From positions 1 through 33,170 of the IMG/VR virus record IMGVR_UViG_3300035698_001104: 33,170 nt of DNA. One strand, given 5' to 3'. The DNA is from a virus. The position numbers and the translations under genes are program-made. Positions within the stretch are counted from its first letter, which is position 1. Every line of letters begins with the position of its first letter. This document shows, piece by piece, positions 1,998 through 8,521 of this stretch. The notes below the pieces were generated by a model. The model was not told where the DNA came from. It made no database searches and saw only the letters and a list, made by a program, of their open reading frames with translations.

Positions 1998-2008
1998 TCT
2001 CCCAGTTT
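1998..2008 (-). promoter_or_regulatory. Shared RBS leader AAACTGGGAGA
   Basis: On the minus strand this 11-mer ends 5 bases before the ATG at 1992. It supplies GGGAG as Shine-Dalgarno and belongs to the family of nearly identical leaders in this phage. The C-to-T variant keeps pairing with the candidate sRNA loop through a G-U wobble. Confidence 0.7.
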
Positions 2009-2019
2009 GGTAAGGCCGC

Positions 2020-2292
2020 TTACGCGGCACGCTTGATAGACTTAATTCGCTTTGACTTCGCGACTCGAGACCGAAGGTGCAGGGCGCGAGCGGGCTTGTT
2101 CTTGATGTAAGCCTTAAGGCGACGACGCGTAACTTGCGCGAATCGTCGAGCGATCTTCTTGTCGGCAACTTCGCCGTAGATGATGCCGATATCGCTATTG
2201 CCAGCAAGAGGCTCTTCGTGCGAAAAGTGAAGGTTGTACTTCGCGACGTTGGTGTATTCGCGACGGTCGATGATAGTCTTGACTGATTTCAT
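2020..2292 (-). CDS. Small basic hypothetical protein, 90 aa
   Basis: The start chosen is ATG at 2292 (MKSVKTIIDRREYTNVAKYN), 8 bases after the leader AAACCGGGAGC; an in-frame ATG farther upstream would place the start inside the promoter region. The C-terminal half is strikingly basic (RRFAQVTRRRLKAYIKNKPA then RALHLRSRVAKSKRIKSIKR), suggesting nucleic-acid binding. The N-terminal half is acidic to neutral with a possible beta strand (SDIGIIYGEVADKK). It is the first gene after the promoter at 2336-2364. No family recognised. Confidence 0.72.
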   Translation of the reverse strand: MKSVKTIIDRREYTNVAKYNLHFSHEEPLAGNSDIGIIYGEVADKKIARRFAQVTRRRLKAYIKNKPARALHLRSRVAKSKRIKSIKRAA

Positions 2293-2300
2293 TTCTTCGT

Positions 2301-2311
2301 GCTCCCGGTTT
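2301..2311 (-). promoter_or_regulatory. Shared RBS leader AAACCGGGAGC
   Basis: It lies 8 bases upstream of the ATG at 2292 on the minus strand and provides GGGAG as ribosome binding site. It matches the leaders of other early genes at 9-10 of 11 positions. Confidence 0.7.
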
Positions 2312-2335
2312 GTGTAGCCAATCGCTACAAGACAC

Positions 2336-2374
2336 ATCGTACCAAGGTGATATCATGATGTATAGTGATATCCC
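2336..2374 (-). promoter_or_regulatory. Minus-strand promoter with two GTGATATCAC-like operators
   Basis: On the minus strand a -35 TATACA (2359-2364) and a -10 TACGAT (2336-2341) are separated by 17 bp. The spacer contains ATGATATCAC (2347-2356), a one-mismatch copy of the palindrome found in three other promoters. A second copy, reading GGGATATCAC on the minus strand (2365-2374), sits immediately upstream of the -35 box. It points at the 2292 gene and, downstream, at the ribbon-helix-helix, exonuclease and Bet genes. Tandem sites suggest tighter repression of the recombination operon than of the others. Confidence 0.72.
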
Positions 2375-2389
2375 TAAAATAAATGAAAT

Positions 2390-2410
2390 AAAAAAGGGGC
2401 GCGAAGCCCC
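2390..2410 (-). terminator. Rho-independent terminator after the 208-aa gene
   Basis: On the minus strand GGGGC, loop TTCGC, GCCCC is followed directly by six T. It begins 18 bases after the stop of the 2428-3054 gene and precedes the next promoter, so that gene forms a single-gene transcription unit. Confidence 0.9.
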
Positions 2411-2427
2411 CGAGTGTTCCCAGTCTA

Positions 2428-3054
2428 TTAGTCGAGAAAGACGAAGCCGCCTTCCAGACTTTGCGCGAGGGCCGCGAGCGCGTCTTGCTTACTTACCGCC
2501 GAGTCGTTGATAAAGAATCGAACCTTATTATTCTTGACCCCGCAAACTATTACTGACTGAGGCGCGTCGTTCTCGTTGATGCGGTGAGTAAAGCTGACCT
2601 CCTGGTCTTCGCCAGACTTCGCGCAGTCGACTAGCTCTGCGACTATCTGCTCTGCGTGCTCTTCGCCTAGCGCAGGGTTGGCGTCGCGCCAAGCGTCCAA
2701 TTCTTCACGCGCTAGAATCCGACGACGCTCTCGCGAGGCTTCCTCTGCCGCCAGTAGCGCCTTGATCTCGGCAAAGTTCGTGTTCTCCCAGAATTCGAGC
2801 AGTGCTGATACCGCTGCCGATGCTTTTGAGAGATTGGCCAACGCTTTGTGATGCTTAACGTTGCGAACATTAAAGTTGAGCTGCGTCTCGACTGTGAACG
2901 TCTCAGGGGCTTCCCCCCATTCCTTGACGTCGGCATTGAGTCGAATAATCAAAGGCGAGCCAAAGCTATTGGATATGCCGCCGATATCGACGCAGACTTC
3001 TACTCGATCTGAAAAGGTTACTGCTGGGGCGTGGATCTCGAATTGCTGTTGCAT
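2428..3054 (-). CDS. Hypothetical early protein, 208 aa, monocistronic
   Basis: This gene has its own promoter (3104-3132), leader (3061-3071) and terminator (2390-2410). The protein begins MQQQFEIHAPAVTFSDRVEV and shows three parts: an N-terminal beta-rich region to about residue 65, a helical, possibly coiled-coil region at about 70-125 (SKASAAVSALLEFWEN, AAEEASRERRRILAREELDA), and a C-terminal alpha/beta part ending EGGFVFLD. It is acidic overall, with no signal peptide or membrane segment. I recognise no family. A private, operator-controlled transcription unit suggests an early takeover or host-interaction function, but that is inference. Confidence 0.78.
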   Translation of the reverse strand: MQQQFEIHAPAVTFSDRVEVCVDIGGISNSFGSPLIIRLNADVKEWGEAPETFTVETQLNFNVRNVKHHKALANLSKASAAVSALLEFWENTNFAEIKALLAAEEASRERRRILAREELDAWRDANPALGEEHAEQIVAELVDCAKSGEDQEVSFTHRINENDAPQSVIVCGVKNNKVRFFINDSAVSKQDALAALAQSLEGGFVFLD

Positions 3055-3060
3055 GATAAA

Positions 3061-3071
3061 TCTCCCGGTTT
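3061..3071 (-). promoter_or_regulatory. Shared RBS leader AAACCGGGAGA
   Basis: This exact consensus copy ends 6 bases before the ATG at 3054 on the minus strand and supplies its Shine-Dalgarno sequence. Confidence 0.75.
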
Positions 3072-3103
3072 AAGTTTGACTTGCTTTTCTTGACTACCCG
3101 AAC

Positions 3104-3132
3104 ATCATACCAATTGTGCTATCACTTGTAAA
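3104..3132 (-). promoter_or_regulatory. Minus-strand promoter with operator in the spacer
   Basis: On the minus strand -35 TTTACA (3127-3132), a 17-bp spacer and -10 TATGAT (3104-3109). The spacer holds GTGATAGCAC (3116-3125), one base from the palindrome GTGATATCAC. The start codon at 3054 lies 50 bases downstream, leaving a 5' UTR of roughly 40 nt that contains the shared leader. Confidence 0.82.
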
Positions 3133-3167
3133 GTGTTTTGTTTTCTAATTTCGGTTATCGAGTAAAC

Positions 3168-3189
3168 TTGACACGTCGAATAATCGACG
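3168..3189 (+). promoter_or_regulatory. TTGACA followed by a 6-bp inverted repeat (possible operator)
   Basis: TTGACA (3168-3173) abuts CGTCGA-ATAA-TCGACG (3174-3189), a perfect 6-bp inverted repeat with a 4-base centre. It lies 17 bases upstream of the ATG at 3207. A convincing -10 box at proper spacing is missing and the start codon is too close, so this may be an operator or mRNA hairpin rather than a promoter. Confidence 0.35.
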
Positions 3190-3206
3190 AACAAACGGAG
3201 AATCAG

Positions 3207-3596
3207 ATGCCTAAGCATTGTCTGCAGTGTAACAAAAAGATTGACCGCGATCTCTCGCAAGCAAGTATTCCAGCGACGACGAAGTATGACGAAATCCCTG
3301 AGATGATTTCTCGAGCAGTAGGCAAAGATGGCGGCACTCTTAAGATCGTCACGACGGGTAACCACTTCGAAAAATTAAGCAAGGCTGCGGGTGAGTCTGG
3401 TACCGTTACAGTTCGATTTTGGACAGGGAGCTACAAGGCCAATCATAATCACTTCTGCTCGGTAGGCTGTGCAGCATTTTACGGTCAAGAGAAAGCCGAT
3501 CAAGCCGATGAGATCGTTCTCGAAGTCGAGTGCGCTACACAGGAGCCAGAGGCCGAAGGTACAGAGGTCGCTACCGAAGAATCCGTGGCAGCCTGA
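3207..3596 (+). CDS. Cys-rich (zinc-ribbon-like) hypothetical protein, 129 aa
   Basis: The start is ATG 3207 (MPKHCLQCNKKIDRD), with CGGAG 6 bases upstream; earlier in-frame starts would read through the promoter region. An N-terminal C-x2-C (CLQC) and a later C-x3-C in NHNHFCSVGCAAFYG near residues 95-105 could jointly bind one zinc ion, with His residues nearby. Between them is a strand-rich region (GGTLKIVTTGN, GTVTVRFWTGSYK). The C-terminus is an acidic, low-complexity tail. The gene is divergent from the 208-aa gene and followed by the candidate antisense-oriented RNA gene. Role unknown; a nucleic-acid or protein-binding adaptor would fit. Confidence 0.78.
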   Translation: MPKHCLQCNKKIDRDLSQASIPATTKYDEIPEMISRAVGKDGGTLKIVTTGNHFEKLSKAAGESGTVTVRFWTGSYKANHNHFCSVGCAAFYGQEKADQADEIVLEVECATQEPEAEGTEVATEESVAA

Positions 3597-3599
3597 CAT

Positions 3600-3677
3600 A
3601 AAAAACGCCATTCGATTCAGTTCTGAAACCGGGAAGAAACAGAGCTAGCAGCCTTTGGGGATTGCATCGAATGGCGC
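3600..3677 (-). ncRNA. Candidate small RNA with anti-leader loop (~76 nt)
   Basis: On the minus strand CGCCATTCGAT (3676-3666) and ATCGAATGGCG (3616-3606) form a perfect 11-bp stem followed immediately by six T (3605-3600), i.e. an intrinsic terminator whose 49-nt loop is the body of the RNA. A perfect TATAAT lies at 3689-3684, placing transcription start about 7 bases later, at the base of the stem. The loop contains TTCCCGGTTT (3635-3626), complementary over 9-10 bases to the shared leader AAAC(C/T)GGGAG that precedes early genes. The simplest reading is a self-contained sRNA that pairs with and occludes those ribosome-binding sites. The -35 box is poor, and expression is unproven. It could alternatively be only a long-loop terminator. 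Confidence 0.55.
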
Positions 3678-3683
3678 ACCTCC

Positions 3684-3689
3684 ATTATA
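3684..3689 (-). promoter_or_regulatory. -10 box TATAAT of the candidate sRNA
   Basis: Perfect TATAAT on the minus strand. The hexamer 17 bp upstream reads GTATCA, a weak -35 match. None of the GTGATATCAC operators is present, so this promoter would be regulated differently from the early promoters. Confidence 0.5.
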
Positions 3690-3746
3690 CTTGACCCGAT
3701 TTTAAATGATACCGATAGCCTTTTTCCACCAAATATTGGCAAGCGT

Positions 3747-3775
3747 TTTACAGCGACTCGAATACACGATACTTT
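3747..3775 (+). promoter_or_regulatory. Possible plus-strand promoter for the replication/ninG genes
   Basis: TTTACA (3747-3752), 17 bp, TACTTT (3770-3775). The -10 is weak. It is the best-spaced pair I find in the 447-bp gap before the plus-strand genes at 4044 and 4409, and would give a leader of about 260 nt that includes the structured element at 3928-4024. Confidence 0.35.
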
Positions 3776-3927
3776 CAACTCACGGGAAGAATTACAGGGC
3801 TATCATTCGTAACATAGAATTACTGCCTCTGCTTCTTCGCGTCGAGTTCATTCGATGATGTGACTGTTTACACTCGATAAAACGAAACAGACGCCAAAAG
3901 CTATGCGCTGACCCACCGTCCGTCAAC

Positions 3928-4024
3928 ATAGTCCCCATTTTGGGACCCAACAGGGCTGCGATAATCGCAGAAGGATACCGAGTACCCGGGCTAAGGCTCC
4001 AATAGGGGAAAGGGGCGGGACTAT
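3928..4024 (+). promoter_or_regulatory. Structured RNA leader upstream of the 4044 gene
   Basis: ATAGTCCC (3928-3935) is perfectly complementary to GGGACTAT (4017-4024), closing an ~80-nt domain. GTCCC (3931-3935) can instead pair locally with GGGAC (3942-3946) around CATTTT, so two exclusive states exist. Inside is a 6-bp hairpin CTGCGA-TAA-TCGCAG (3956-3970). The closing stem ends about 20 bases before the start codon at 4044 and precedes its AAGGA ribosome-binding site. It could be a riboswitch-like or antitermination leader; I match it to no known family. Confidence 0.4.
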
Positions 4025-4043
4025 AGGTCAAGGATAAAAACAG

Positions 4044-4412
4044 ATGATACTCAAAGACAAATCGAACTGGGACGCTCAAGATGACGACGTTCTCGCATGG
4101 CAGCAAGCGTACCCGTCAGTTGATGTGTTTCAAGAATTACGGGCAATGGAGTCTTGGCTCGACGCGAACCCCGCAAAGCGTAAAACCAAAACGGGTATGA
4201 AGCGTTTTGTTAACAGCTGGCTATCTCGAGCGCAGCAGAACGGCGGGGCGTCTGGGCTGTCGTCGTCGTCTGATATCGTGGTCAAGACGCGAGACATGAC
4301 ACAGCTTGACGATCTCTCGCACGACTACACAAATTCAGAGGAAATGCGCGCCTTGTATCTTTCGAAGTACGGACAATATCTGTCGCACGAAGGCCGTAGG
4401 GTGACCGCTTGA
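4044..4412 (+). CDS. Phage replication-associated protein, WLxxNPxxRKTxxGMxRFxxxWLSRAQ type, 122 aa
   Basis: ATG 4044 follows AAGGA at 8 bases. Residues about 20-65 (YPSVDVFQELRAMESWLDAN then PAKRKTKTGMKRFVNSWLSR) match a small helical module found at the C-termini of many phage replication initiator or helicase-loader proteins, and sometimes alone next to ninG. The C-terminal half is Ser-rich then acidic (SGLSSSSD, DDLSHDYTNSEE), with no further domain. The stop overlaps the TTG start of ninG by 4 bases, so the two are coupled. The isolated module suggests an accessory to replication, not an initiator. The family match is from memory. Confidence 0.72.
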   Translation: MILKDKSNWDAQDDDVLAWQQAYPSVDVFQELRAMESWLDANPAKRKTKTGMKRFVNSWLSRAQQNGGASGLSSSSDIVVKTRDMTQLDDLSHDYTNSEEMRALYLSKYGQYLSHEGRRVTA

Positions 4413-4960
4413 CACGCCGCTGTCACGTATGCAGAGCGGTATTCGAGCCAACAAGTTCTTTGCAGACGTGGTGCACCGTTGAGTGTGGCATAAAGCTGAG
4501 TCAAACGCGGCTGGCTTTAAAAGCAAAGCGTGAGCGTAATCGTAAAGCTAAAAAGGTCAAGACGCGGGCCGAGGTGGTCTCAGAGGCGCAGGCAGCAGTC
4601 AATCGGTATATACGCGCTCGAGATATCGACAAAGGTTGCGTCAGCTGCGACACAAGCTTGAGAGTCGAGGGCAGAAAGGGAGGAAAATTCGACGCGGGTC
4701 ATTATCGCACTAGGGGTAGCGCCCCGCACATGAAGTTTCATTTGCTCAATATCTTCGGTCAATGCAAGAAGTGCAATCACAGGTACTCAGGTAACACAGT
4801 CGAGATGCGCAAAACTCTGTTAACCAGACTGGGAGCAGCAGTCGTCGAAGCAGTCGAGAATAACAACACGCGACCAGATTATGATATGCAGGGTCTTCAG
4901 CGAATCAAAAAGATCTTCAACGCTCGAGCCAAACACTTCGAAAAGCTGCGTGAGTTATAG
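4409..4960 (+). CDS. ninG: NinG-family recombination protein
   Basis: This 183-aa protein resembles lambda NinG (Rap), which acts in phage recombination by cleaving branched DNA intermediates. It shows an N-terminal zinc-finger-like region (RRCHVCRAVFEP, WCTVECGIKLSQ), a Lys/Arg-rich linker (ALKAKRERNRKAKKVKTRAE), and the family core with CVSC and FDAGHYRTRGS, then HLLNIFGQCKKCNHRYSGN. The H and C residues are arranged as in HNH-like metal sites. The start is TTG at 4409, overlapping the previous stop, with AGGGTG upstream. It converges on the small minus-strand gene at 4955-5098, overlapping it by 6 bases. Confidence 0.9.
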   Translation: MTRRCHVCRAVFEPTSSLQTWCTVECGIKLSQTRLALKAKRERNRKAKKVKTRAEVVSEAQAAVNRYIRARDIDKGCVSCDTSLRVEGRKGGKFDAGHYRTRGSAPHMKFHLLNIFGQCKKCNHRYSGNTVEMRKTLLTRLGAAVVEAVENNNTRPDYDMQGLQRIKKIFNARAKHFEKLREL

Positions 4961-5098
4961 CATCTTTGCGTCGACGTAAATCCAGCCGATAGTCGCTAGG
5001 CTACCCAGCGTGAAGTACGCAAACGGACCTTCGACGAACGTACCCAGCCCGAAGTAAGTCGCAATCATAGCAATGACGCCGTAAGCAATTCTGTCCAT
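4955..5098 (-). CDS. Small membrane protein, 47 aa
   Basis: ATG 5098 follows ACTGGAGAGATAAC, giving GGAG as ribosome-binding site. The product is MDRIAYGVIAMIATYFGLGT, FVEGPFAYFTLGSLATIGWI, YVDAKML. Two hydrophobic stretches, at about residues 5-20 and 25-42, are separated by a Glu-containing turn, so it may form a helical hairpin in the inner membrane. The size and two short segments would fit a holin-like or superinfection-exclusion peptide, but no lysis neighbours are present, so no function is assigned. It is the last gene of the four-gene transcript starting at 5730-5758. Confidence 0.68.
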   Translation of the reverse strand: MDRIAYGVIAMIATYFGLGTFVEGPFAYFTLGSLATIGWIYVDAKML

Positions 5099-5099
5099 G

Positions 5100-5270
5100 T
5101 TATCTCTCCAGTTCCCGCATCTCGAAAGTATCGCAAGGGCACGTCTTTTGCTCTTGAAATAGGGCTGACCAGTTCGGTGGCTGGTCGTGTTCGTCGGTGT
5201 ACCTAGTATCGTCAGCGAGAACGACGCAGATTGCTTTGCACGCCCCGCACTCATAGACTCGAGTCATCAT
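5100..5270 (-). CDS. Small Cys-rich zinc-finger-like protein, 56 aa
   Basis: ATG 5270 (or the adjacent ATG at 5267) overlaps the preceding stop codon as ATGA. The product reads MMTRVYECGACKAICVVLAD, followed by a charged middle, then EQKTCPCDTFEMRELER. The two pairs C-x2-C (CGAC) and C-x-C (CPC), about 35 residues apart, are likely to bind zinc. It lies 1 base from the next start (5098), so the genes are tightly coupled. No family recognised. Confidence 0.7.
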   Translation of the reverse strand: MMTRVYECGACKAICVVLADDTRYTDEHDQPPNWSALFQEQKTCPCDTFEMRELER

Positions 5271-5575
5271 CTTTCTGCACCCGACTGATAAGCCTTAACG
5301 AACGTCTCGGCGTCCGAGTCTACCGCAGCGCACTGATCGGCAAACTCTTTGCGCACTGCGAGTTTTTGATGGTAGCCAACGTCGACTCGACCACCGGGAA
5401 TCACGCGCAACTTGTAAGTGCAGAACGTGTGGTGCTCGAGTATCGTTGCGAACTGGCGACTGTGAACGCAGTACGTGATGTGCAACGTGCCGTTGTTGTA
5501 GTACGTCATTTTGCGAGTAAATCCCGCATCGACGTCCGTGTGTACCTTTTCCTGGAATTCGTGACGGGTAATCAT
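5267..5575 (-). CDS. Hypothetical protein, 102 aa
   Basis: ATG 5575 (MITRHEFQEKVHTDVDAG) has a very strong AGGAGGT 7 bases upstream and overlaps the stop of the 35-aa gene by 4 bases; a longer in-frame extension upstream runs through the promoter and is not credible. The middle is strand-rich (RKMTYYNNGTLHITYCVHSR, FCTYKLRVIPGGRVDVGY), the C-terminus helical and acidic. I recognise no family. The strong RBS suggests high expression early in infection. Confidence 0.75.
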   Translation of the reverse strand: MITRHEFQEKVHTDVDAGFTRKMTYYNNGTLHITYCVHSRQFATILEHHTFCTYKLRVIPGGRVDVGYHQKLAVRKEFADQCAAVDSDAETFVKAYQSGAER

Positions 5576-5679
5576 TGTGCTACCTCCTTTTGGGCGCGAG
5601 ACTTGTACATTTTGCAAGGCTTCTTGGTCTCGGTAGCGCGTTGATCGATTCGCTGAGTGATTTCTTGTACTAGATGCAT
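5572..5679 (-). CDS. Short early peptide, 35 aa
   Basis: ATG 5679 follows the consensus leader AAACCGGGAGA by 6 bases and lies 51 bases downstream of the -10 box, so it is the first gene of its transcript. The sequence is MHLVQEITQRIDQRATETKK plus PCKMYKSRAQKEVAQ, basic and helical. Its stop overlaps the next start as ATGA, and its 3' end carries the strong RBS of the next gene. It may function as a peptide or as a leader controlling its neighbour by coupling. Confidence 0.68.
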   Translation of the reverse strand: MHLVQEITQRIDQRATETKKPCKMYKSRAQKEVAQ

Positions 5680-5685
5680 TGTCGT

Positions 5686-5696
5686 TCTCCCGGTTT
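5686..5696 (-). promoter_or_regulatory. Shared RBS leader AAACCGGGAGA
   Basis: Exact consensus copy ending 6 bases before the ATG at 5679 on the minus strand. Confidence 0.75.
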
Positions 5697-5729
5697 GGTT
5701 TGGTTTCGAAGTCTCTCGACCTTGAAGCC

Positions 5730-5758
5730 ATCATACAAAGTGTGATATCACTTGTAAA
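5730..5758 (-). promoter_or_regulatory. Minus-strand promoter with perfect GTGATATCAC operator
   Basis: On the minus strand -35 TTTACA (5753-5758), 17 bp, -10 TATGAT (5730-5735). The spacer contains the perfect 10-bp palindrome GTGATATCAC (5742-5751). This is the best-matching member of the four-promoter set and drives the four small genes down to 4955. Confidence 0.85.
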
Positions 5759-5786
5759 GCGGTTTAGCAAAAATAAATGCGATATT

Positions 5787-6752
5787 TTATGCGATCTCGA
5801 CGACAGCCTCATCGTCGGTCAGCGTTCGCTTATATAGGATCATTTCGTCCCCCATGTTTTTCAGTTCGAGTTTGTGCTTATCTTCTGTCAGCTTAATGTA
5901 CGTCATTCCGAATTCGTCGCGCCCAGTCGCCTCGCAATTTGGCCAGTGCTCGAGCAGCTGATGACGCCACGGGCGATAATTAACCTCGTGATGCCAGCGT
6001 CGATACTTCCAGACGACTCGCGCTACATCGGGATGCATCTTTGCGAGCATTTCGCTTTTCGGTTTCGTGCCCTCGCTCGCGTAGAACGCTTCAGAGTTCC
6101 CGCCCTTGACAGCTTGCGTGACGATCTTATCTTGCAGCGCGTGATTAAACTGGACCGTACACATGCCAGCCTTCATAACTCGAAGCGATAGGTCAGTGTC
6201 CTCGTTGTAGCGACCGCGCCACCGGAATGGGATATCATTGCGGATTAGCAAGCACGAATAAATGCGGGTATTCATAACGAACGGCGGTCGATACTGATAG
6301 GGAAAGCAGAACATCTTGTACTGGGGTCCGCTGATAGCGAGATTCTTGTACCGTTCGTGAAAAGCCTCGCAGCTTCGAAGTAAGCCGCCGCTGCGACACC
6401 TGACGCGAAAGTCATTGTTATAGCGCAAGAAGTCGAGAATGTTGTCATCCATTACCCAGTGCATCTGCGCGCCTAGTCTAATCGAGTGCTCCCATGCGAA
6501 GTTCCTTGCAGCGCCCGGTCCGACTGACTTCGACAACCCGAGATCGTCAAACGTGTCATACTGCTCTTGATACTTCGGGTCGAGTATGAGCAACCTTTCC
6601 CTGGGTATGACAGAGGCGTAGTCGCTAAACTGCGCCTCTTCAATGACCATGAAATAGTTGACGCGCATACTATCGAGCGCACGGGCGGTTAGTCTCGACT
6701 CCCACCGAGACTTTGACACGATGTAAATAGGGTACCGCGGATGATTAGACAC
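5787..6752 (-). CDS. TAGT-like glycosyltransferase (TET-associated glycosyltransferase type)
   Basis: This 321-aa protein starts at GTG 6752, overlapping the preceding gene by 8 bases. The N-terminus PRYPIYIVSKSRWESRLTAR is the nucleotide-sugar-binding opening seen in the TAGT family. HWVMDDNILDFLRYN near residues 117-130 supplies a D-D-N metal site, and WRGRYNEDTDLSLRVMKAGM near 180-200 supplies the E-D acid motif of GT-A enzymes. In phages such enzymes glycosylate oxidised or hydroxymethylated DNA bases made by TET/JBP dioxygenases. No TET gene or cytosine methyltransferase is in this window, so the DNA-modification role depends on genes outside; another acceptor is possible. Glycosyltransferase fold: high confidence; TAGT membership: moderate. 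Confidence 0.7.
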   Translation of the reverse strand: MSNHPRYPIYIVSKSRWESRLTARALDSMRVNYFMVIEEAQFSDYASVIPRERLLILDPKYQEQYDTFDDLGLSKSVGPGAARNFAWEHSIRLGAQMHWVMDDNILDFLRYNNDFRVRCRSGGLLRSCEAFHERYKNLAISGPQYKMFCFPYQYRPPFVMNTRIYSCLLIRNDIPFRWRGRYNEDTDLSLRVMKAGMCTVQFNHALQDKIVTQAVKGGNSEAFYASEGTKPKSEMLAKMHPDVARVVWKYRRWHHEVNYRPWRHQLLEHWPNCEATGRDEFGMTYIKLTEDKHKLELKNMGDEMILYKRTLTDDEAVVEIA

Positions 6753-7715: not shown

Positions 7716-7726
7716 TCTCCCAGTTT
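7716..7726 (-). promoter_or_regulatory. Shared RBS leader AAACTGGGAGA
   Basis: It follows directly on the T-tract of the terminator at 7727-7748 and ends 5 bases before ATG 7710. Same variant as at 1998-2008. No promoter lies between it and the terminator. Confidence 0.7.
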
Positions 7727-7754: not shown

Positions 7755-8504
7755 TTATGCGATTGCTTCGAGAATGAAGCGGTCCGCTTTGTTCGTTCGC
7801 TCTGCGATGGTGAACATGTTGGTTCGAGCGCCGCGAGGCTTGACGGCCTCGGTGACTGAATTCCAGAGACGCCATGCGCTGAAGCCATCTTCGGCGTGTT
7901 CTTCGAAAGACGGGGTCAGCCATTCGTTAGCCGCGAAGCCAAGCTGAGCCCCCGATAGTACGTTTTGACGAAACATCTCGACCAGCATCGCGTCGCCATC
8001 TTTCTGGCTAATCTGCGCGAGTCGATACTTGTCCGCCTTTTCGTTCTCGAAGTTGGCGCGGATGGGAAGTTGCTCGACCGCTTGGTCGATGATGACAGGT
8101 AGTCTGGCATCTGCGTTTACAGTCTGACGGGTTGACATCGTGTGCAGTTCGCCGCCGAAGCAGAGATTGTCGCAAACGATAACCTTCGTGCCGATGCAGA
8201 TCCCTCGAGATACAGAGCGATCATGTGAGCCGCGAAGCCCGATGGTCAGTTCCATATCGTCGCGCTCGAAGCCGTCGAGGCTAATTCGCATTGCGCCGAA
8301 GAACTGCTGATCCTCATTGTGCGTGACGTATTCTTCTTGATCGATTCGAACACCTGCGTTGTCGAGGCGCATCTTGAGCATTTCGATAAACTCACCGAAG
8401 CCGACTGGCTGGTGATAGCGACCCATGGGCGCTGGAGTTTTGATGTAGCCCATCTGCTGGGCTGTTCTGATTTCTGCGTCGTTGTTGTAGAGTAAGCCTT
8501 TCAT
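7755..8504 (-). CDS. DUF932-family phage/plasmid protein, 249 aa
   Basis: ATG 8504 lies 6 bases after the shared leader and 41 bases from the -10 box. Residues about 88-125 (LTIGLRGSHDRSVSRGICIG, TKVIVCDNLCFGGELHTMST) carry the G-x-R-x-SHD and V-x-C-x-N-x-x-F signatures of DUF932, a family common in phages and plasmids and often very highly expressed but without established biochemistry. The protein is complete, and the C-terminal half (NEWLTPSFEEHAEDGFSAWR, LWNSVTEAVK) is also typical. It is promoter-proximal and followed at once by a terminator, so it is probably expressed well above the genes after it. Confidence 0.88.
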   Translation of the reverse strand: MKGLLYNNDAEIRTAQQMGYIKTPAPMGRYHQPVGFGEFIEMLKMRLDNAGVRIDQEEYVTHNEDQQFFGAMRISLDGFERDDMELTIGLRGSHDRSVSRGICIGTKVIVCDNLCFGGELHTMSTRQTVNADARLPVIIDQAVEQLPIRANFENEKADKYRLAQISQKDGDAMLVEMFRQNVLSGAQLGFAANEWLTPSFEEHAEDGFSAWRLWNSVTEAVKPRGARTNMFTIAERTNKADRFILEAIA

Positions 8505-8510
8505 TTTGTA

Positions 8511-8521
8511 TCTCCCGGTTA
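8511..8521 (-). promoter_or_regulatory. Shared RBS leader TAACCGGGAGA
   Basis: This copy ends 6 bases before ATG 8504 on the minus strand. It differs from consensus by A to T at its first position. Confidence 0.72.

Follow-up and report, generated by a model that had tools for sequence, protein, structure and literature searches.

The phage antisense RNAs OOP, sar and C4 each act on one neighbouring gene. The C4 RNA of phages P1 and P7 (Rfam RF01695) is a compact RNA whose loops are complementary to a ribosome-binding region, and it acts on the ant mRNA. Lambda OOP, a short RNA of the antisense strand with its own promoter and terminator (pO-oop-tO), is flanked by a small early gene on one side and a gene for replication on the other, and acts on cII by antisense pairing with the mRNA (PMC5869508, PMC12197685). 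The P22 sar RNA and DicF of the Qin prophage are further antisense sRNAs of phage or prophage origin that block translation (PMC12197685). The alpha-r14 or 'cuckoo' sRNAs of alphaproteobacteria (NfeR1) form hairpins with unpaired C-rich anti-Shine-Dalgarno motifs (PMC10746234). Here we describe a viral locus that is best read as a gene for an antisense sRNA that resembles OOP in its position and C4 or alpha-r14 in its loop, and that may also act in trans on early leaders.

The locus was found in a virus record of 33,170 bases, analysed over its whole length (the window). The minus strand carries the late genes, which extend from the terminase gene (33144) to about 8675, and TerL shares 54% identity with TerL of Pseudomonas phage PAJU2. 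Early minus-strand genes include those for a RecT-like annealing protein, an exonuclease VIII-like protein and a TET-associated glycosyltransferase. The candidate RNA lies opposite a small plus-strand island of three genes, 3207, 4044 and ninG. The product of 3207 showed no family match to CII and no match among phages, and the replication role of 4044 is assigned by similarity only.

On the minus strand, TATAAT, GGAGGTG, CGCCATTCGAT, ATCGAATGGCG and TTTTTT follow one another in this order (Table 1), and the hexamer, the 11-bp inverted repeat and the T6 run of the preliminary description were all found in place. The repeat is the sole perfect one of at least 11 bp with a loop of at most 80 in the whole window. 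Such repeats by themselves are not rare (mean of 0.44 per dinucleotide shuffle), and a repeat followed by a run of T5 appeared in none of 200 dinucleotide shuffles. Perfect TATAAT hexamers occur just five times in the window, both strands included, and one of them stands 7 nt ahead of the stem. The earlier claim of a perfect TATAAT promoter holds for the -10 hexamer, which is exact, but not for the rest of the promoter: the best -35 candidate, GTATCA, has 3/6 matches and a TGn extension is lacking, which is why the promoter is absent from the consensus-scan list. The putative promoter-RNA-terminator unit is well supported statistically, and the locus is probably a genuine, very small RNA gene equipped with both a start and a stop signal. 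From the TATAAT promoter, transcription would yield an RNA of ~78 nt that ends at its own closing stem plus U6.

The minus-strand RNA has a fold z-score of -2.9. Its 49-nt loop is predicted not to be open but to fold into two arms inside the closing stem, the larger of which displays UUUCUUCCCGGUUU as a 14-nt apical loop that contains the anti-leader part. Most bases of this loop are predicted to be unpaired (0.92-1.00), with only a weak internal 2-bp clamp, so that the anti-leader sequence is predicted to be accessible.

Table 1 Features of the candidate RNA locus, the shared leaders and the compared loci (window coordinates unless a locus is named).
Feature	Position	Strand	Remark
Predicted small RNA, ~78 nt, closed by an 11-12 bp stem, with two arms inside and a T6 tail	3600..3677	-	
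-10 hexamer TATAAT, perfect	3684..3689	-	
Best -35 candidate GTATCA, 3/6 matches, 17-bp spacer, weak	3707..3712	-	read from sequence, absent from consensus-scan list
Closing stem, 5' arm CGCCATTCGAT	3666..3676	-	
Closing stem, 3' arm ATCGAATGGCG, then T6 (3605-3600), intrinsic terminator	3606..3616	-	
14-nt apical loop UUUCUUCCCGGUUU with anti-leader CUUCCCGGUUU	3626..3639	-	predicted fold, pairing
Second arm, C-rich loop AAUCCCCAAA, weak SD pairing	3654..3663	-	predicted fold, pairing
Leader AAACTGGGA, start 1992	2000..2008	-	
Leader AAACCGGGA, start 2292	2303..2311	-	own promoter TATACA 2364-2359, TACGAT 2341-2336
Leader AAACCGGGA, start 3054	3063..3071	-	own promoter 3132-3104
Leader AAACCGGGA, start 5679	5688..5696	-	own promoter 5758-5730
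Leader AAACTGGGA, start 7710	7718..7726	-	directly downstream of terminator
Leader TAACCGGGAGA, 8-nt core, start 8504	8511..8521	-	own promoter 8573-8545
129-aa ORF with CxxC motifs (3207)	3207..3596	+	stop codon 4 nt from sRNA 3' end
Small replisome-organiser-like protein (4044)	4044..4412	+	~200-370 relatives among viral contigs
NinG/Rap endonuclease	4409..4960	+	
Structured non-coding sequence	L178:4749-4997, L247:4330-4607, L268:724-971, L233:3370-3647, L216:2221-2489, L248:3712-3992		

The leader motif AAACYGGGA occurs six times in the window against 0.37 expected, a number reached in none of 100 shuffles. Counted relative to start codons, five copies precede minus-strand starts (1992, 2292, 3054, 5679 and 7710), and the sixth lies on the opposite strand, in the hairpin. 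Motif search and reading of the sequence confirmed the leader at these five starts and, as an 8-nt core, at 8504, just as first reported. A single chance copy somewhere in the window would be unsurprising at that expectation; its falling within the apical loop is unlikely. Leader-like sequences were also seen at two more minus-strand starts, 26556 and 5097 (AAACTGGGGAGC and AACTGGAGAGA).

Four of the leader genes (2292, 3054, 5679 and 8504) have minus-strand promoters of the form TTTACA/TATACA-17-TANGAT, whose spacer encloses a GTGATATCAC-like palindrome resembling an operator for an early repressor. At 1992 and 7710 the leader is present without this promoter type, and the stretch between promoter and leader, judged by eye, is unconserved. 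The leader is therefore not merely a by-product of promoter duplication and seems to be retained in its own right, the simplest role being that of a strong ribosome-binding site.

Pairing was ranked with the 14-nt loop; a ranking of whole-RNA duplexes was dropped because it is blind to the RNA's own fold. Among 42 starts, the six leader starts ranked 1, 2, 3, 5, 6 and 8, and two others (26556 and 27497) equalled the weaker leaders in score. Outside the leaders, equal pairing was reached by 40 of ~66,000 14-mers, in 10 places of the window. Shuffled loops did as well in 14 of 5000 trials, and in 103 of 5000 when TTCCC was kept; TCCC-centred sites of the window did as well in 5 of 160 cases. The mean of the best five pairings was -15.0 with starts of the same phage, and -10.4 to -13.3 when the starts came from seven other phages. 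All these figures apply to a loop picked after its leader match had been noticed and are uncorrected for that choice. Part of this signal is accounted for by a generic anti-SD loop. The AAACC extension is the specific part, at about the 2-3% level, and the excess is modest. The preliminary claim that an sRNA silences several early genes draws partial support from the unit statistics, the accessible loop, the ranks of the six leaders and the phage specificity, but is weakened by the 2-3% of sequences that do equally well once the TTCCC core is granted.

We tentatively read the minus-strand segment 3677-3600 as a short phage antisense RNA gene whose loop lowers translation of the six leader genes. 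Its C-rich apical loop, by predicted fold and pairing an accessible seed complementary to the SD regions of several mRNAs, would pair with the AAACYGGGAGA leader and cover the Shine-Dalgarno sequence, so that translation would most likely be lowered. The RNA, if transcribed, stable and suitably timed, could plausibly shut off the six genes. By position within the plus-strand gene cluster it would also form an OOP-like antisense unit, perfectly antisense to any read-through mRNA there, and full-length pairing may in addition destabilise the 3207-4044 mRNA. The two modes of pairing are compatible; the loop match favours the first and the geometry the second. That this one 78-nt RNA switches off the whole early six-gene regulon post-transcriptionally, on top of the GTGATATCAC-like promoter operator shared by four of the genes, is a stronger claim that we regard as somewhat doubtful. 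If one RNA did recognise a leader that recurs before six genes, this would amount to a phage-made post-transcriptional regulon.

The likeness to OOP is drawn from layout, not sequence. As in lambda, a short RNA with its own promoter and terminator would be encoded opposite the gap that separates a small early gene from a gene assigned to replication by similarity, and ninG belongs to the same early region. Unlike OOP, the candidate overlaps no ORF, ending 4 nt past the stop codon of 3207, its terminator stem closes the entire RNA, and its loop has an extra complementarity to leaders in trans. With C4 it shares compactness and loops complementary to a ribosome-binding region, but its partners are six scattered leaders and it carries its own terminator. 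No Rfam family, RF01695 included, matched the candidate at the gathering score or even at E up to 5. Like the alpha-r14/cuckoo sRNAs, it exposes a C-rich anti-SD motif in a hairpin loop; unlike them, it is phage-borne, and in place of several CCUCCUCCC loops it has the loops UUUCUUCCCGGUUU and AAUCCCCAAA, with UUCUUCCCGG and AAUCCCC and no copy of CCUCCUCCC. For sar and DicF, a leader common to several phage genes is not described in PMC12197685. The candidate is thus not a member of C4 or alpha-r14, nor an OOP by the defining overlap with the 3' part of cII. If real, it would work like the SD-blocking sRNAs of phages and bacteria (PMC12197685, PMC10746234).

A relative with the same leader or hairpin was not found among phages and viral contigs, nor was a close relative of the phage; records very near the window may be absent from both collections. 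A blastn search with positions 2200-5800 returned no match in phages, and two neighbouring proteins (208 and 129 aa) had none in phages or viral contigs. A scan of viral contigs for the exonuclease came back empty, and a DUF932 scan yielded matches of only 28%. In 50 records (46 of 80 TerL loci plus four DUF932 loci), the repeated leader was found in none, and the 208-aa gene was represented only by one weak match (G036), whose surroundings look unrelated. The sole contig with a match to the promoter-plus-leader pattern (L177) proved to be unrelated.

Two scans of viral contigs confirmed 202 and 368 relatives of the 4044 protein, and 80 from each scan were kept. An upstream gene adjoins the 4044 homologue in most of the kept loci, and several have a long stretch without long ORFs before it. 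Among the latter, seven loci (L178, L247, L233, L216, L248, L251 and L268) have a minus-strand intrinsic terminator shortly past the stop codon that ends the preceding plus gene, an arrangement shared with the window; under the same settings, L238, L239, L014 and L015 yielded none. The terminator loops are C-rich in five of the seven (L247, with GTTCCCTCCAGAT, L233, L216, L248 and L178), four of which (L247, L233, L216 and L248) are mutually related and hence not independent. The loops of L251 and L268 are TTAATT, and loops that are not C-rich were also seen in the related layouts of L239, L291, L293 and L304. Unrelated phages thus often have a terminator at the equivalent place, with a C-rich anti-SD loop about as often absent as present. 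In L247 and L233, and probably in L216, the loop pairs best with the HTH gene just downstream, and a loop match to a repeated leader was not seen in L178 and L247. When three of these phages were compared with the window as a whole, the 4044 gene alone was held in common, so these terminators are a positional parallel and not a covariation test. Beside these sites, within a conserved plus-strand promoter-like sequence, lies a small palindrome with a GGAGGG centre, which may be an operator.

In several other phages such terminators directly adjoin the stop codon with which the preceding plus gene ends, which would favour a purely cis-acting role. An OOP-like antisense RNA could pair perfectly with the 3207/4044 mRNA and act through interference or RNase III cleavage; the leader would then be matched by coincidence, aided by a C-rich loop. 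The action of OOP on cII is a precedent (PMC5869508, PMC12197685), and here the RNA would be fully complementary to the 3207/4044/ninG cluster in its intergenic part. It would end 4 nt from the stop codon of 3207; ninG and a replication-type gene follow, and no plus-strand terminator was listed between 3596 and 4044. We nevertheless consider this rather unlikely as the whole explanation: unlike OOP and cII there is no ORF overlap, 3207 and 4044 would have to be co-transcribed, and the match of an exposed loop to the sole repeated leader is left unexplained. If true, it would extend OOP-like antisense units to a phage type without close relatives in the collections searched.

Less probable still is that the hairpin is only a terminator, halting minus-strand transcription from the right, with an incidental TATAAT and no independent small RNA. 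The -35 is indeed weak, and at the corresponding place other phages have plain short terminators, of which some show AATTAA-type loops. However, it is unusual for a terminator to have a structured loop of 49 nt, a perfect TATAAT, of which there are only five in 33 kb, lies 7 nt ahead of the stem, and the nearest minus-strand gene on the right ends at 4955, past ninG. It is very improbable that the hairpin instead acts in the plus-strand mRNA as a decoy, exposing AAACCGGGAAGAAA to titrate a protein (or RNA) that binds early leaders. The plus strand folds equally well (z -3.35) and its loop repeats the leader, but it is the minus strand that carries T6 and TATAAT, the plus copy diverges from the leader past GGGA, and no leader-binding protein is known. 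A leader-peptide gene is hardly credible: GGAGGT (3683-3678) is a strong SD-like sequence 10 nt upstream of an ATG (3667-3665) that opens a 16-codon minus-strand ORF (MQSPKAASSVSSRFQN) within the hairpin, but it would lie upstream of the RNA start if TATAAT is the -10, and the ATG is locked within the stem.

Several observations were made beside the antisense RNA candidate. The 344 nt upstream of gene 4044 (3700-4043, plus strand) hold no convincing ORF and gave no Rfam match; their plus-strand fold beats 100 of 100 shuffles (z -3.0). In several other phages, an apparently structured, conserved non-coding sequence of ~250-280 nt lies upstream of the 4044 homologues (Table 1). For 15 of its 59 predicted pairs, one or more of the sequences differ at both pairing positions. 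It had no Rfam match at the gathering score in the loci tested, and a sequence profile of L178, L247 and L268 did not find it in the window. Vibrio phages 1.122 and 1.275 (L014:1717-2328 and L015:2064-2667) have ~600 bp without annotated genes or Rfam matches ahead of a C5 methylase gene and the 4044 homologue, and the two stretches are largely near-identical to each other. The TET-associated glycosyltransferase of the window (5787-6752, minus strand; Pfam PF20691, E 1.5e-35) shows ~55% identity to proteins of large Aeromonas phages, which suggests that the phage may carry modified DNA bases.
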